This document shows, in pieces, positions 1,966 through 27,792 of a stretch of 30,379 nt of DNA. Each line of letters begins with the position of its first letter. Position 1 is the stretch's first letter. This DNA comes from a virus: the IMG/VR virus record IMGVR_UViG_3300025108_000243, positions 1 to 30,379 of that record. The stretch is one strand, 5' to 3'. The notes beneath the pieces are model-generated. The model had not been told where the DNA came from and did no database searches. It saw nothing but the letters and a program-made list of their open reading frames with translations. The translations under genes and the position numbers were made by a program.

Positions 1966-1988
1966 ACTAATGTCAAAGGGGGTCTATC

Positions 1989-2786
1989 TTGGATGTAACT
2001 TTAGAAACAGAACAGAGACTAATTGAGGAACAGCTTCAGTTAGAGACTGACATGATGACAGGTGGCATACACCGTTTTAGAAAGATAAAAGATGTGGCAG
2101 TAGACAAAGGAAAGGAATCACATACACCACATGGAAGAGCAATAGTATCCAGACTAGTACATGCAGTAGCAGGTTCAGTAGTACAGTTCATTAACAACCC
2201 TACTAATACCTCACGAGATATTGCTTGGAAAAATTTAAAGGACATGGATGCAGAGCAAGTAGCATACTTAGCACTAGTCACACTAGTGGATAGCATAAGC
2301 AGAAAGAATACCTTACTGTTTGTAGCTAGAACCATAGGCTCAAACCTAGAGATACAAGATAGGTTAGACAAGTGGATACACAGTGAAGGAGAGACAGCTA
2401 CTAATACTATCAAGCTTGCTATGAAGAAAGCATATGGAGCTAGAAGGTTTGGTCTGACTAACAAGATGAACAAGGATGGCTACAAGAATACTGAGTGGCT
2501 CAAGTCTGAACGTGTACATGTAGGGTTTAAGTTAGTTGACCTTATCATACAAAGTACAGGTGTCATCAAGTTAGATACACAACAGACTGAACGTAAGAGA
2601 CGTGCAACCTATGTTGTACCAACCCAAGATACACTTGAATGGATTGCAGCATTCAATGAGTATATGGAAGGCTCACGTCCACGATACCTACCATGTATTA
2701 TACCACCTAAAGATTGGACATCAATTAAAGGGGGTGGATATCATGGACACCAGATAGATGAACTACCTATAGTGAGGAGAAAGTAA
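1989..2786 (+). CDS. T7-type RNA polymerase, N-terminal subunit (split gene)
   Basis: A 265-residue protein matching the N-terminal part of T7 RNA polymerase up to about T7 residue 300. Recognisable stretches include GIHRFRK near residue 25, DAEQVAYLAL near 88, ERVHVGFKLVDLIIQSTG near 175-192, and CIIPPKDWTSIKGGGY near 237-252. The family transcribes class II and III phage genes from dedicated promoters. This part holds the N-terminal promoter-binding and upstream-melting domain. An in-frame TAA at 1968-1970 leaves TTG 1989 as the only usable start; AAAGGGGG ends 6-7 bases before it. The gene stops at TAA 2784-2786, and the rest of the polymerase begins on the overlapping ATG. Confidence 0.9.
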   Translation: MDVTLETEQRLIEEQLQLETDMMTGGIHRFRKIKDVAVDKGKESHTPHGRAIVSRLVHAVAGSVVQFINNPTNTSRDIAWKNLKDMDAEQVAYLALVTLVDSISRKNTLLFVARTIGSNLEIQDRLDKWIHSEGETATNTIKLAMKKAYGARRFGLTNKMNKDGYKNTEWLKSERVHVGFKLVDLIIQSTGVIKLDTQQTERKRRATYVVPTQDTLEWIAAFNEYMEGSRPRYLPCIIPPKDWTSIKGGGYHGHQIDELPIVRRK

Positions 2787-4432
2787 TGAGTTTAAATGTA
2801 CACTTAAAGAGACTAGCTCAACAAGACTTAACAGCTGAGTATGCATGTCTCAATGCATTACAGCATACAGAGTGGAGAGTTAATCAGAATATCCTCAAGG
2901 TTATACGTCACATGTGGGACAATGGACAAGAGGTGGGTAAGCTACCTGCAAGGGAAGACATACCTCTACCTAACTATCACTTCAGTAAAGAACCAAGTGA
3001 GATGAACGAGGAAGAGAAAGCTACGTTTAGAATCTGGTCACGTAAACGTGCTGAGATTTACTCTAACAATAATCGTAGTGTGAGTAAACGTATCCAAGTT
3101 GAACGCACACTCCAGATAGCAGAACAGTTTGCTAAGTATGATAGGTTCTACTACGTGTGGCAGAATGATTTCAGGTCACGTAAGTATGCAAGCAGTACCT
3201 TCCTGTCACCACAGTCAGCTGATTGGAGCAAGAGCCTACTAGAATTTGGTTACTCTATGCCTATCAATAACTGGGATGATGCAAGGTGGTTGTGTATACA
3301 TGGTGCAAACCTATATGGTAACGACAAGATAACGTTAGACAAACGTGAGGCTTGGGCATGGGACTATGTAGATGAGACACATAGGATAGTAGATAATCCT
3401 TATGACAATCAGGCATGGCTTGATGCAGACAAACCCTTTCAGTTTCTAGCTTGGTGCTATGAGATGTCAGCCCTAGCTAAACAGGGTTGGGGTTATCACA
3501 CTAGGCTACCTGTCTCTGCTGATGGTAGCTGTAATGGATTGCAACATCTGTCTGCCATACTAAGAGATGAGGTAGGAGGTAGAGCTACTAACCTAGTACC
3601 TTCTGATCTACCTCAAGACATCTATACACAGGTAGCTAACCAAGCTATACAACGTATCCAAGCAGAGGATACAGAGATAGGTAGGAAGTGTTTAGAGTTT
3701 GGTATTGATAGGAAGTTAGCTAAGAGACCTGTTATGATTGTGCCTTACTCTGGTACTAAGCATGCTTGTCGTACCTACATAGAAGATGCTATCAAAGATA
3801 AGATCAAGGAAGGTGCACCTAATATATTTGGGGATGACTTGTTCACTGTGACACACTACCTTGCAGGACATATATGGGATAGCATTAGTGGTGTGATTGT
3901 ATCAGCACGTAAGGTGATGGACTATGTTAAGAGTGTAGGAGATGTATACTCTGGCATGAACAGGCACATGGAATGGGTAACACCTACAGGTTGGGTAGTT
4001 ATGCAACAGTACAGTGAGGTACAGCAGAAGAGAATCAAGACACACATCAACGGTGATGTAGTATCTCTATCCTTTCCTAAAGATAAGGAAGACACGATCA
4101 ATAAGCAGAGGACAGGGTTGGGTAGTAGTCCTAACTTCATCCATAGTTTAGATGCCTCTGCTATGACACGTACTATTAACAAGGCTACTCAAGTAGGGAT
4201 AGTAGACTTTGCTATGGTTCACGACAGCTACGGTACACACAGTAGCATGATGCCACAGCTATCTAATATCTTACGTGAAGAGTTTGTTAGTATGTATGAA
4301 GAGCATGATGTTCTTGATGAACTAAGGACACATGCAATCAAGACTCTAGGTACTGAGGATGTACCTCTGCCTCCAAGTATGGGCAACCTAGATATCCGTA
4401 ACGTATTGAAATCAGATTATTTCTTTGCCTGA
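2786..4432 (+). CDS. T7-type RNA polymerase, catalytic subunit (split gene)
   Basis: A 548-residue protein matching T7 RNA polymerase from about residue 300 to the end: thumb, palm, fingers and C-terminal foot. Catalytic Asp246 sits in ADGSCNGLQH (T7 D537). Lys313 and Tyr321 in KRPVMIVPY match T7 K631 and Y639. His479-Asp480 in VHDSYGT match H811-D812. The end, NLDIRNVLKSDYFFA, resembles the T7 FAFA foot. In the specificity loop, Arg416 is kept but the T7 N748, R756 and Q758 positions appear as Lys418, Val426 and Leu428, implying a different promoter. ATG 2786 overlaps the upstream stop as TAATG, with GAGGAG at 2774-2779, so coupled translation of a two-subunit enzyme is likely. Confidence 0.93.
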   Translation: MSLNVHLKRLAQQDLTAEYACLNALQHTEWRVNQNILKVIRHMWDNGQEVGKLPAREDIPLPNYHFSKEPSEMNEEEKATFRIWSRKRAEIYSNNNRSVSKRIQVERTLQIAEQFAKYDRFYYVWQNDFRSRKYASSTFLSPQSADWSKSLLEFGYSMPINNWDDARWLCIHGANLYGNDKITLDKREAWAWDYVDETHRIVDNPYDNQAWLDADKPFQFLAWCYEMSALAKQGWGYHTRLPVSADGSCNGLQHLSAILRDEVGGRATNLVPSDLPQDIYTQVANQAIQRIQAEDTEIGRKCLEFGIDRKLAKRPVMIVPYSGTKHACRTYIEDAIKDKIKEGAPNIFGDDLFTVTHYLAGHIWDSISGVIVSARKVMDYVKSVGDVYSGMNRHMEWVTPTGWVVMQQYSEVQQKRIKTHINGDVVSLSFPKDKEDTINKQRTGLGSSPNFIHSLDASAMTRTINKATQVGIVDFAMVHDSYGTHSSMMPQLSNILREEFVSMYEEHDVLDELRTHAIKTLGTEDVPLPPSMGNLDIRNVLKSDYFFA

Positions 4433-4434
4433 TT

Positions 4435-4453
4435 TCTAAAGTTACATCCTAGC
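4435..4453 (+). promoter_or_regulatory. Candidate phage RNAP promoter, upstream of SSB
   Basis: TCTAAAGTTACA at 4435-4446 begins 3 bases after the RNA polymerase stop codon. CTAAAGTTACA is shared exactly with the intergenic copies at 12742 and 27776. The second half (TCCTAG) differs from the ATTA ending of the others. The SSB start follows about 40 bases downstream. Position, recurrence and orientation suggest a promoter for the phage polymerase; no transcription data are available. Confidence 0.45.
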
Positions 4454-10844: not shown

Positions 10845-12745
10845 TAAGTAATCATTTACCAACAGACTACCAGACATTCATAGCTACTAGTAGATATGCT
10901 AGATGGTTAGAAGAAGAGAACAGAAGAGAGACATGGGGAGAAACCGTAGATAGATACATCTCCTTCCTAAAGGGTAGTACAAATAAACTATCTAATGAAG
11001 TCTGGAAAGAACTAGAAGAAGCTATACTTAATCTACAAGTAATGCCTAGTATGAGAGCCTTGATGACTGCAGGTGTTGCAGCTGAAAGAGATAACACTTG
11101 TATATACAACTGTTCCTACCTACCAGTAGATCACATACGTGCATTTGATGAGGCTATGTTTATCTTACTATGTGGTACAGGTGTAGGCTTTAGTGTTGAG
11201 AGACAGTCAATCTCCAAGCTACCTGACATACCTACTGAGATGGTTCAGAGTAATGATGTTGTATTTGTAGAAGATAGTAAAGAAGGTTGGGCAAAGTCTT
11301 TACATAAATTATTATCACACCTATATACAGGTGACATACCTAAGTGGGATATGTCTGCTGTACGTCCTGCAGGTGCTAGACTCAAGACGTTTGGTGGTAG
11401 GGCTAGTGGTTCACAACCATTGATAGACTTGTTTAACTTTGTAGTAGAAATCTTTAAGGGTGCTGCAGGTAGAAAGCTTAACTCTATTGAGTGCCATGAT
11501 ATCATGTGTAAGATTGGTGAAGTTGTAGTTGTAGGTGGTGTTAGACGTTCAGCTATGATCAGCTTGTCCAACCTAAGTGATGGACGTATGGCTAAAGCTA
11601 AGTCTGGTCAATGGTGGGAGAATGAAGGACAACGTGCATTGGCTAATAACTCTGTAGCTTATACAGATAAGCCTGACATGGAAGGGTTTATGAGAGAGTG
11701 GTTATCTCTTGTAGAATCTAAGTCAGGTGAGAGAGGTATCTTCTCAAGAATAGCAGCTGACAATCACGTTAAGATGAATGGACGTAGGGAAACAGGGTAT
11801 GAGTGGGGTACTAATCCTTGTTCAGAAATTATCCTAAGACCTTATCAGTTCTGTAATCTAACTGAAGTTGTTGTACGTGAAACAGATGATAAGGAAAGTC
11901 TTAAGAAGAAGGTAAGACTAGCTACCATACTAGGTACATTACAATCTGCCTTTACTAAGATGCCTTACCTCCGTAAGATATGGCAGAAGAATACAGAAGA
12001 AGAGAGATTACTAGGTGTATCCTTAACAGGTATCATGGATAACATGGTCTTATCTAAGACTAGAGATAGTAAGACATGGCTAAAAGAAATGAAGCAGGTA
12101 GCTATAGACACTAATGAGGAATACTCAGAGATGTTAAGTGTACCACAATCAGCAGCTATTACTTGTGTCAAACCTTCTGGTACTGTATCACAGTTAGTTG
12201 ATAGTGCTTCTGGTATTCATGCCAGACATAGTGACTATTACATTAGAACTGTACGTGGAGATAACAAAGACCCACTTACTATGTTCTTAAAAGACAGTGG
12301 TATCCCAGCTGAACCATGTGTAATGAAGCCAGACTCTACTACAGTGTTTAGCTTTCCTACTAAATCACCTACTGGTTCTGTTACTCGTAATGTTATGACT
12401 GCTATAGAACAGCTAGAGTTATGGAAACACTATGCATTAGAATGGTGTGAGCATAAACCTTCTGTTACTATTACAGTTAAAGATGCTGAGTGGATGGAAG
12501 TAGGAGCATGGGTATATAAGAACTTTGACATATGTTCTGGTATTTCTTTCTTACCTCATAGTGATCATACATATGCACAAGCACCCTATCAAGATATAGA
12601 TGAAGCTAAGTATTATGCACTACTTAATGAGATGCCTGAGTCTATTGATTGGTCTGCTTTATCCTTATATGAGAAGAAAGATACAACAACTAGTAGCCAA
12701 ACTTTAGCATGTTCTGCTGATGGTTGTGAAATAGTTGATATCTAA
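10841..12745 (+). CDS. nrdJ: Ribonucleotide reductase, class II (adenosylcobalamin-dependent)
   Basis: A 634-residue reductase matching monomeric class II enzymes (Lactobacillus leichmannii type), which make deoxynucleotides using adenosylcobalamin. Visible features: MRALMTAGVAAERDN with NCSYLPVD (Cys91), the GTGVGF loop, NPCSEI (radical Cys327 and Glu329), FCNL (Cys338), KPSGTVS, and a C-terminal shuttle pair C624-x4-C629 in ACSADGCEIVDI. So the redox and radical cysteines are complete. No separate small subunit or activase is present. It needs host or environmental cobalamin. It ends the nucleotide block; a promoter-like motif overlaps its stop codon. Confidence 0.92.
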   Translation: MISNHLPTDYQTFIATSRYARWLEEENRRETWGETVDRYISFLKGSTNKLSNEVWKELEEAILNLQVMPSMRALMTAGVAAERDNTCIYNCSYLPVDHIRAFDEAMFILLCGTGVGFSVERQSISKLPDIPTEMVQSNDVVFVEDSKEGWAKSLHKLLSHLYTGDIPKWDMSAVRPAGARLKTFGGRASGSQPLIDLFNFVVEIFKGAAGRKLNSIECHDIMCKIGEVVVVGGVRRSAMISLSNLSDGRMAKAKSGQWWENEGQRALANNSVAYTDKPDMEGFMREWLSLVESKSGERGIFSRIAADNHVKMNGRRETGYEWGTNPCSEIILRPYQFCNLTEVVVRETDDKESLKKKVRLATILGTLQSAFTKMPYLRKIWQKNTEEERLLGVSLTGIMDNMVLSKTRDSKTWLKEMKQVAIDTNEEYSEMLSVPQSAAITCVKPSGTVSQLVDSASGIHARHSDYYIRTVRGDNKDPLTMFLKDSGIPAEPCVMKPDSTTVFSFPTKSPTGSVTRNVMTAIEQLELWKHYALEWCEHKPSVTITVKDAEWMEVGAWVYKNFDICSGISFLPHSDHTYAQAPYQDIDEAKYYALLNEMPESIDWSALSLYEKKDTTTSSQTLACSADGCEIVDI

Positions 12746-12758
12746 AGTTACAACATTA
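12741..12758 (+). promoter_or_regulatory. Candidate phage RNAP promoter, upstream of head module
   Basis: CTAAAGTTACAACATTA at 12742-12758 is identical over 17 bases to the copy at 27776-27792. It overlaps the stop codon of the reductase gene and precedes the first head-module gene by 16 bases. That is where T7-like phages start class III transcription. The exact reuse of a 17-mer in two intergenic sites 15 kb apart is unlikely by chance. Confidence 0.6.
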
Positions 12759-21352: not shown

Positions 21353-24300
21353 ATGGCAAAGAGAACTCCAGTAAGTGGTTTAGATATTAGTGGAATTTCT
21401 ACTAAACCTGTAGCAAGACCAGTAGATACTTATGTACGTCCTGCAAAAATTCAAACACAACCTTCTCCTTTAAGTCAGTTTGTAGATGCTATAGCTCCAG
21501 CAGTAAAAGCTGTAGAAGATAAAAACTTAGAGACCAGATTAAAACGTGAAAGAGAAATAGAAAACTTTAGATTAAAATCTAAGTATGCACAGATGGAAAC
21601 AAATGCATATGAATTAAACCTAAGTGTGGAAAACGATTTTAAAGTAAATGAAAAGACTTATGTTAAAGATTATACTAGTACTTCTTATTTAGAGCCAATT
21701 AAAAAACATCAATATAATTATCTAGAAACTTTAAAAAATCAAGGTACTGATGAACTTGTTATAGAAGCTGCTCAATTAACATTTGATAAACATAATGTTA
21801 AATATGTAGCTGACTTTAATGCTGCAAAAGCTAAGTATAATACTGACTTACTTAACAACAATAATATGGATACCCATACACAAACAATGTTAAGTACTGG
21901 GCAAACAAAAGAAGAAAAAATAAAGAATCATCAAAATATTATAACGCAGTTTGCAGAAGCTAATCCTTTACCTAATGGTAAGCCTGATTTTAAAAGAGCA
22001 ATAGATAATGCTTATAATCTTTTAAAAAGTCAACCTACGTATGATAATACTTTGTGGGATGCTTTATCCACAATGAAGTCTAAAGATGGTAAAAAATTAC
22101 CAGTTATGTACACAGCAGAAAAACGTAAAGACACTGCTGTAATGGAAAAAGCAAGAGATACACAAATACAAAAGAACCAACTTAACAAAGTTAAAACGGA
22201 AACTCTTGCAATTAAAATTACTGATGCTATAAATAATGGTACACGTATAGATAATATAACATATAGAAACCCTAAAACAAACTTTAACGTAGCTTTTACT
22301 ACAGCTGAGAAAGATCAATATGTTACTGCTTTAATACAAAGACCTGAGTTTCAAAGTAAAACTTCTAGAGCTAAGTTATTTGCTCAAATTGGACATGTAC
22401 CTGCAAATATAACAGCAGAATTAAAAAAGGGTATTCAATATATAGACGGAACTACTGTTGCTACTTCAGATGACGATAATGCTCTTATAGAACAAAGTTA
22501 TTTAATTTGGGAGTCTTTAAAAAACGCAAACAATAACATGACTAAACTTATTGGTGATGATGCACATAAATTGTTTTTAGCTATGGAAACAAATATTAGA
22601 GAACAAGCAACCACTGGCACATACCAACCTGAAACTATGATGACTTTAGATGCAGAAGGTAGTGATCCAGAAGTAGCTCTTACTCCAAGACAACCTATTA
22701 ATTATAATAATGCTGCTAATGTAATTAGTAAGATAGATATTAAAAACTATAAAAAATCTGATTCTTTAAAAAAGCTACTAGCTACTAAAGTAAATAGGAA
22801 CAATCTTCTTCAAAGGCTTTTTGGAGGAGCAGACTTATCTGAAGTTACTAATGCTGCTTCAATCTTACCAGATATTACAGAACGTGCTCACTACATTCAA
22901 ATGAGTGATCCAAGCTTAAGTGAAGAAGAAGTAGTAGAAAAGGCAATAACAAGTGCTGAAGCAGATTACACTATAATAAAATCAGGTGCTGGTAAGAACT
23001 ATGCTTTTAAACATTTAAATACTGATGTAGGTTCTCCCTTAAAACCTGAAGTTGTTTTACCAGAGTTTAATAAAGTATTGCTTGAGTCTAAAGTAGTAAG
23101 ACAATACGTGAAACAAACTTTTCCTAACCTTAATGAAGATGATCTTAAAAGTATAGATGTTGCTATTGAACCTTTAGGTAAAGACCCTAATCAAGTAAGT
23201 ATTAACTTATATAATATAGCTAAAGGTAGAGAATTTATAGGTATGTTTAGAGTTCCTTACAGTAAAAGTAAAATATTAAGTAAGAAAGGTCAGAAAGTTG
23301 TATTACAGGAGTTTGCTAATACTTTGACAAAAGAAATTGTACCAGAAGGTTCAACTAGTTATTCTACAACAACAGCCCCTAAAACAGATTTTATAGAAGT
23401 AGGTACATTTACAAAGCCAAGTAGTGAAGACTATGATACTATAACAACTGAAATGGGTACACTTAAACGTTCAGACCTTAATACTAGTGTAGGATCAGTT
23501 ATTAAATATGTACTAAATTCATTTGGTGATCCTATGGTTCAAAACTCAGAAGCAATAGGAGCTTTATCAACAAGGTTAGGTAAATCTTTAACTGACCCTA
23601 TTTTTAATCTTATAGCAGATGAAATAAAAAAAGCAAAAGACTTTGAGGGTTTTGGTGCTGATGATGTTATAACTGAAATGGGTACAATTAAAAGTACGGA
23701 TAAGGATAAACAATCTTCTTTATTAGATGATGTTGTAAATACTGCAAGTAATATTGTAGATCAAATTAAGCCTATTAGTACAGCTAGTGCAGATAGTACT
23801 CTAGATAATACAAAAGTAAGTAACCAACCAACAGGAGATCAAGTGATTATAGAAGGTAATACTACAGAAGAAAAAACAGCTAACATGATAGCAACTCAAG
23901 AAGGTTTCTCTAGCACACCTTATGCAGATGGTAAAGATAAGTCAGTAGGCTTTGGTTTCTATTTACCTGCTTTAGAGGCTGATGAGAAAGCTTTGATTAA
24001 AGATGTTAACAATGTTACAAAAGAAGAAGGTGTAGCAGTACTAAAATTAAAAGTACAGAAGATTGGTAACTATCTAGAAAAAGAAATGCAAGGTTTTAGA
24101 AATTTACCAGAGGAAGCACAGACAGCTATCATTAGTATGGGCTACCAGTTAGGTGTAACTAACCTTCCAAAAACTTGGAAAAAATTTACAGCAGCTATTA
24201 AAGAAGCAGGTCAGTATGAAGAAGGGTCTACTGAACAAGCTGAAGCTTTAGCTAAAGCTAAGTTTGAAATGCTATATAGTAAGACTAAAGATGGTAAAAC

Positions 24301-24385
24301 TGTCTTAAATAAATGGGCTAAACAAACCAAAGAACGTGCTTTTGAAATGGCTAATGCTGTAAGTGATGCTAACCTTTCAGTATAA
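21353..24385 (+). CDS. Internal virion protein (T7 gp15-like) with C-terminal lysozyme domain
   Basis: A 1010-residue protein, longer than T7 gp15 (747). The first 800 or so residues are helical and Lys/Asn-rich, as expected for the ejected core protein that builds the periplasmic tunnel. Residues about 835-1005 form a GH24 (T4-type) lysozyme-like domain: catalytic Glu850 in QEGFSSTPYADG, Asp859 exactly nine residues later as in T4 lysozyme (E11, D20), then KSVGFGF, with Ser864 at the T26 place. LPEEAQTAIISMGYQLG is the usual later motif. It probably opens the cell wall during DNA entry. Confidence 0.85.
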   Translation: MAKRTPVSGLDISGISTKPVARPVDTYVRPAKIQTQPSPLSQFVDAIAPAVKAVEDKNLETRLKREREIENFRLKSKYAQMETNAYELNLSVENDFKVNEKTYVKDYTSTSYLEPIKKHQYNYLETLKNQGTDELVIEAAQLTFDKHNVKYVADFNAAKAKYNTDLLNNNNMDTHTQTMLSTGQTKEEKIKNHQNIITQFAEANPLPNGKPDFKRAIDNAYNLLKSQPTYDNTLWDALSTMKSKDGKKLPVMYTAEKRKDTAVMEKARDTQIQKNQLNKVKTETLAIKITDAINNGTRIDNITYRNPKTNFNVAFTTAEKDQYVTALIQRPEFQSKTSRAKLFAQIGHVPANITAELKKGIQYIDGTTVATSDDDNALIEQSYLIWESLKNANNNMTKLIGDDAHKLFLAMETNIREQATTGTYQPETMMTLDAEGSDPEVALTPRQPINYNNAANVISKIDIKNYKKSDSLKKLLATKVNRNNLLQRLFGGADLSEVTNAASILPDITERAHYIQMSDPSLSEEEVVEKAITSAEADYTIIKSGAGKNYAFKHLNTDVGSPLKPEVVLPEFNKVLLESKVVRQYVKQTFPNLNEDDLKSIDVAIEPLGKDPNQVSINLYNIAKGREFIGMFRVPYSKSKILSKKGQKVVLQEFANTLTKEIVPEGSTSYSTTTAPKTDFIEVGTFTKPSSEDYDTITTEMGTLKRSDLNTSVGSVIKYVLNSFGDPMVQNSEAIGALSTRLGKSLTDPIFNLIADEIKKAKDFEGFGADDVITEMGTIKSTDKDKQSSLLDDVVNTASNIVDQIKPISTASADSTLDNTKVSNQPTGDQVIIEGNTTEEKTANMIATQEGFSSTPYADGKDKSVGFGFYLPALEADEKALIKDVNNVTKEEGVAVLKLKVQKIGNYLEKEMQGFRNLPEEAQTAIISMGYQLGVTNLPKTWKKFTAAIKEAGQYEEGSTEQAEALAKAKFEMLYSKTKDGKTVLNKWAKQTKERAFEMANAVSDANLSV

Positions 24386-27775: not shown

Positions 27776-27792
27776 CTAAAGTTACAACATTA
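27776..27792 (+). promoter_or_regulatory. Candidate phage RNAP promoter, upstream of tail fibre
   Basis: CTAAAGTTACAACATTA, identical to 12742-12758, starts 3 bases after the gp16 homologue's stop codon and ends 16 bases before the fibre gene's ATG. T7 has phi-17 at the corresponding place. Confidence 0.6.

Follow-up and report, generated by a model that had tools for sequence, protein, structure and literature searches.

A T7-type RNA polymerase encoded by two genes in a clade of uncultured marine phages

Uncultured marine phages of a large T7-like group encode their RNA polymerase (RNAP) as two proteins, cut near the loop at which engineers have divided the T7 enzyme. That enzyme serves as the model for RNA polymerases of one chain and is much used in synthetic biology, including in deliberately split versions. 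A near-identical cut was made by nature twice independently and has been kept through a deep marine clade, and that the split is genuine, old and under selection is well supported. The split pairs are two-part polymerases available from nature, with promoter specificities that appear to be new, and allow a test of whether the switch from initiation to elongation requires covalent attachment of the promoter-binding domain.

Organization of the two RNA polymerase genes

The window (the whole stretch of DNA analysed, a 30,379-base IMG/VR virus record, which is a fragment) carries the following features at its RNAP locus:

1989..2786, + strand: RNAP N subunit gene (265 aa, TTG start), encoding the promoter-binding, N-terminal domain and ending after the conserved PPKDWTSIKGGGYHG...LPIVRRK tail
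2774..2779, + strand: GAGGAG Shine-Dalgarno sequence for the C subunit, within the last codons of the N gene
2784..2788, + strand: TAATG stop-start overlap of the N and C genes; relatives have ATGA, TAAGTTATG, TAGTATG, or whole genes between
2786..4432, + strand: RNAP C subunit gene (548 aa, ATG start), encoding thumb, palm, fingers, all catalytic residues and the specificity-loop region

The TAA of the N gene (2784-2786) overlaps the ATG of the C gene (2786-2788), with one base common to both ORFs. The N part matches Pfam RPOL_N (E 2.5e-12) and the C part Pfam RNA_pol (5e-101); they cover positions 2-266 and 272-816 of PHROG 414, respectively, and thus span the family end to end without a gap. 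N residues 9-263 align to T7 RNAP 30-298 and C residues 16-548 to T7 314-883, and in a multiple alignment the break falls at T7 300/300, in the linker that joins the promoter-binding domain to the thumb. The catalytic residues D246, K313, Y321 and D480 (T7 D537, K631, Y639 and D812) are invariant in 24 relatives. The initial annotation had described two ORFs covering the whole polymerase without a missing segment, a break near T7 residue 300 between the N-terminal domain and the thumb, retention of all four catalytic residues, a TTG start, a TAATG junction and a GAGGAG site, and all of this agrees with the alignments and the sequence. Domain order and catalytic residues are therefore those of a T7-type single-subunit RNAP, but the one polypeptide is replaced by the products of two genes throughout the clade.

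Conservation of the split

Relatives were collected by IMG/VR protein and profile searches; loci were counted where both RNAP halves were readable, and some contigs were fetched more than once. On this basis the polymerase is split in 226/226 loci of the clade to which the window belongs and fused in none, with 125 distinct 480-nt junctions. The C subunits of this clade are 51-100% identical to that of the window, while N-subunit identity goes down to about 40%. No single uninterrupted RNAP gene was found among relatives with a C-subunit identity above about 45%. The initial annotation had proposed a natural split rather than an error, and had named two observations that would speak against it, a single gene in the close relatives and a base error near position 2784. 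The first is contradicted by the split in every locus of the clade, the second by two other contigs (IMG/VR 3300037635_000156 and 3300006924_001874), which encode an identical C subunit and have the same junction.

The distance from the N stop codon to the C ATG is -4 nt at 71 junctions, -1 at 29 and +3 at 11, with further values of +44, +211 and up to +975 nt; the junctions include all three frame relations and TGA, TAA and TAG stops. An upstream TTG start may be used in the +44 cases. Most members retain stop-start coupling, and most keep GTGAGG ahead of the C start. One 70-aa ORF lies between the halves in L230 (2204-2416) and five small ORFs in L222 (2505-3483), so that a fused product is ruled out in these two loci and strict 1:1 synthesis is not essential. 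Small unrelated ORFs at this place parallel the arrangement in the cultured phage HTVC025P.

For most pairs of the window with its close relatives, dN/dS lies at about 0.13-0.16 (N) and 0.10-0.14 (C), and both halves are under purifying selection. The values for L015 (0.35 for N and 0.26 for C) come from a possibly chimeric contig. In L015, L054 and L240 (IMGVR_UViG_3300011253_000113), N and C up to residue ~395 resemble the window at 96-100%, and C from there on, its promoter and the following genes resemble L205 at 95-100%. A joint swap of specificity loop and promoter was considered for L015 and dropped: all downstream sequence is likewise of the other lineage, an assembly chimera is therefore as likely as a recombinant, and the contig was not used as evidence.

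Five near-complete relatives (40.7, 40.7, 40.0, 40.1 and 45.2 kb) were searched in full; in each, RNA_pol and RPOL_N gave a single match, and no second full-length RNAP was found elsewhere in any of the five genomes.

Genome context

The window has a T7-type gene order. It starts with six small ORFs without PHROG matches, the RNAP, a gp2.5-like single-stranded DNA-binding protein (SSB), endonuclease I and a primase-helicase, continues with a PolA-type DNA polymerase, endonuclease VII, an exonuclease and ribonucleotide reductase, and ends with the head-tail connector, the major capsid protein, tail and internal virion proteins and tail fibres. One 1010-aa ORF (21353-24385, + strand), located among the internal virion protein genes, had no PHROG match at E 0.001. 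An integrase was not found in the window, itself a fragment record. The gene order that delimits the Autographiviridae (T7 group) is present, namely RNAP, gp2.5 SSB, endonuclease I, primase-helicase, PolA, connector and internal virion proteins. The wording for this family also names possession of a single RNAP gene (PMC11092137), and in the window one RNAP is encoded by two genes.

When contigs from bacterial genomes were scanned for a host, zero members of the window clade were returned. The best matches were fused relatives from alphaproteobacteria (L124, a Rhodobiaceae MAG, 45%; L145, an alphaproteobacterial SAG, 42%) and the independently split prophages of SAR11. As these lie outside the window clade, an alphaproteobacterial host for the window phage is only a guess. 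One relative, G006 (IMGVR_UViG_2802429358_000003), contains two identical stretches with the promoter motif, at ~2450 and ~43435 (reversed coordinates). Their spacing of ~41 kb within a 45.2-kb record suggests a genome of about 41 kb with terminal redundancy. The IMG number format of G006 may indicate an isolate or single-cell source and hence a possible route to the host.

Putative promoters

A search of the intergenic regions of the window and five relatives for shared motifs identified CTAAAGTTACANC. The window contains this motif exactly on the + strand at three places, which are conserved in the relatives; a further copy lies on the opposite strand:

1988..2004, - strand: putative antisense cognate promoter CTAAAGTTACATCCAAG over the N-gene start codon; predicted +1 at 1988, reading left
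4436..4452, + strand: putative cognate T7-type promoter CTAAAGTTACATCCTAG, just past the RNAP stop
12742..12758, + strand: exact promoter-like motif copy between the ribonucleotide reductase gene and the head genes
27776..27792, + strand: exact promoter-like motif copy ahead of the tail-fibre gene

The copies of this T7-geometry motif (CTAAAGTTACANCCTAG) are candidate cognate promoters, an assignment based on conservation and position. An exact 10-base core occurs within about 5 bases past the RNAP stop in 37/80 distinct sequences versus 106/20,000 random stretches. The copy at 4436 corresponds in position to phi1.1A of T7 and to phi2/phi3 as annotated in the LUZ100 record. Other lineages have the variants CTAAAGTACCACTC, CTAAAGTTCCCCTC and CTAAACTGTACCTC, and the identical change is found in the antisense copy over the N start, so that sense and antisense copies co-vary between lineages.

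The antisense copy, whose predicted +1 immediately precedes the TTG start of the N gene, fixes the codons GTA-ACT-TTA-GAA in 29/29 diverged relatives; synonymous sites are frozen here, while elsewhere in the N gene these four codons account for 48, 31, 13 and 47% of their residues, respectively. Deep members of the window clade have the downstream copy and lack the antisense one. A generic search for antisense repeats at the RNAP starts of fused relatives found no comparable arrangement, HTVC011P having only a palindrome. The cultured split phages HTVC025P and Eyrgjafa likewise yielded no antisense site of this kind. In LUZ100, a phage promoter lies upstream of the RNAP in the sense direction (PMC10134795), unlike the antisense copy of the window. 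The co-variation of the putative antisense promoter with the polymerase suggests an undescribed form of self-restraint, or of early-gene shut-off, by a phage polymerase.

Predicted structure and mode of action

AlphaFold models of the single chains have a mean pLDDT of 78 (N) and 80 (C), and both match the corresponding parts of T7 RNAP (TM 0.75 for N and about 0.8 for C). When N is modelled alone, its last 34 residues, including the conserved PPKDWTxxxGGGYHG motif, have a pLDDT below 50, as would be expected for a tail that folds on its partner. The same model has a TM of 0.70-0.76 to elongation complexes (e.g. 1h38, 1msw), compared with 0.47 to the promoter complex 1cez and 0.44 to the early intermediate 3e2e; this elongation-like fold may reflect the AlphaFold training data.

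The two genes most probably encode a co-translated heterodimer that works like T7 RNAP, although dimer formation and activity are what we infer. The initial annotation had thought a working heterodimer plausible, and it is here the best of the readings considered, on the grounds of conservation, selection, the fold match, the co-variation of the promoter motif with the polymerase lineage, the activity of T7 RNAP cut at 301/302 once its halves are brought together, and the viability of SAR11 phages in culture whose RNAP is independently split in this linker. Both subunits would be made from one message, with ribosomes that end the N subunit restarting at once on the overlapping ATG, so that the halves would be produced about 1:1 and side by side. 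The N subunit would then dock on the C subunit via its conserved C-terminal tail, predicted to be disordered alone. The heterodimer would recognise the promoter candidate that follows the RNAP gene and those that precede the head genes and the tail-fibre gene, and transcribe the middle and late genes as T7 RNAP does. As the polymerase rises, the antisense promoter over the N start would fire leftward against early transcription and limit the synthesis of the polymerase itself.

The N-terminal domain of T7 RNAP binds the promoter and refolds at promoter escape, and the break in the window lies at the end of this domain. The N subunit could accordingly be a detachable initiation factor that opens promoters with C and leaves or is exchanged at elongation, like sigma or mitochondrial TFB2M/Mtf1. 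We regard this as unlikely. The elongation-like fold of the N model and the separate encoding of the halves in L222 and L230 would fit such a factor, but the model may simply mirror the training data, the stop-start coupling of most members suggests equal amounts, and the conserved tail (T7 ~267-300) lies past the refolding part and is probably a permanent anchor. Slightly less probable still is a sigma-like cycle, in which the fission made the promoter-binding domain a separable initiation factor and a self-limiting antisense promoter was placed over the start of its gene.

Against the heterodimer of two separate chains, it could also be argued that the frames are joined in translation, by frameshifting or readthrough, into one chain, and the commonest junctions indeed have the C frame at -1 to N with an overlap of 1 or 4 nt. 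This is very improbable: a single clade shows all three frame relations, TAA or TGA stands in frame throughout one lineage, and the junction has no conserved slippery site, GTGAGG and a start codon being kept instead. With the three stop codons and the genes that intervene in L222 and L230, a fused chain was rejected. A sequencing or assembly error, or a decaying gene, is the least probable explanation of all, for although the window is a single metagenome contig, the same junction recurs in independent assemblies among many distinct split junctions, dN/dS is well below 1 in both halves with invariant catalytic residues, and no unsplit reads were found for the related split of SAR11 phages (Chen et al. 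2019, PMC6811365).

An independent fission in SAR11 phages

Split T7-like prophages were found in single-cell and metagenome genomes of SAR11 (Pelagibacteraceae; L130, L134-L139, L141, L143 and L152). Among cultured phages, HTVC025P, HTVC041P and Eyrgjafa have two annotated 'RNA polymerase' genes, with two small ORFs between them in HTVC025P, and HTVC011P of the same group has a single one. The RNAP of HTVC019Pvirus group III has been described as 'fragmented into two parts' in all except HTVC011P (Chen et al. 2019, PMC6811365).

In whole-polymerase trees, the window clade has support 100, with the unsplit L045 and L124 as its sister, and the SAR11 group is separate. The split sequences were united in 0/200 bootstrap trees, and the AU test rejects a single clade (p = 0.0004). 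A shared origin of the two splits is thereby rejected, and RNAP fission has occurred at least twice in T7-like phages.

In some group III pelagiphages (L315, L316, L318, L130 and L134), TGCACNNGTGCA-type palindromes follow the RNAP gene, and in HTVC011P they are also present at the RNAP start; these are possibly operators of a MarR-like regulator.

Comparison with known split polymerases

The initial annotation held that the RNAP of a T7-order genome is normally one chain and offered N4 as precedent. The split is borne out, but the supposed lack of a precedent of T7 order is not: SAR11 phages of this gene order are split, and a split RNAP in such a genome is therefore not unprecedented. The closest precedent is HTVC019Pvirus group III (HTVC025P, HTVC041P, Eyrgjafa EXVC018P, uvMED S30-C28 and uv-Fonsiphage-EPL), not N4 RNAPII. 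Like the window, these phages have a T7-order genome with RPOL_N and RNA_pol in two genes, which overlap or have small genes between them (HTVC025P), and the break lies in the same linker between N-terminal domain and thumb. It falls about 7 residues upstream of that of the window (about T7 293 versus T7 300), so that the LxLVK strand stays on the C half. The N half has an extra C-terminal extension, unlike that of the window, and the C subunits of the two groups are only ~37% identical.

RNAPII of phage N4 (Schitoviridae; gp15 and gp16) is broken at T7 ~453, inside the catalytic part (PMC4496689). This cut, at T7 453/454, is past the thumb and the DX2GR motif and before motif A, and identity with the break of the window is rejected. 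N4 RNAPII has a truncated N-terminal domain and depends on gp2 for its specificity, in contrast to the window enzyme with its full N-terminal domain and T7-geometry promoter candidates.

Roseophages CRP-171 and CRP-804 and pelagiphages HTVC019P and HTVC121P share the gene families of the window and its order RNAP-SSB-endonuclease-primase-DNAP, but their RNAP is one uninterrupted gene. The engineered T7 RNAP cut at 301/302, one or two residues from the natural break of the window, works once light-induced dimerisation domains join the halves (PMC13304687); other engineered cuts are at 69, 179 and 563. Unlike the window enzyme, this system is artificial, with halves held together by fused light-dimerising domains, so spontaneous assembly at this break is something we only infer. 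Given N4 RNAPII and the SAR11 phages described in 2019, a split RNAP has only limited novelty; the new findings are a fission at nearly the same site that is separate, deep and widespread, and a putative antisense cognate promoter.
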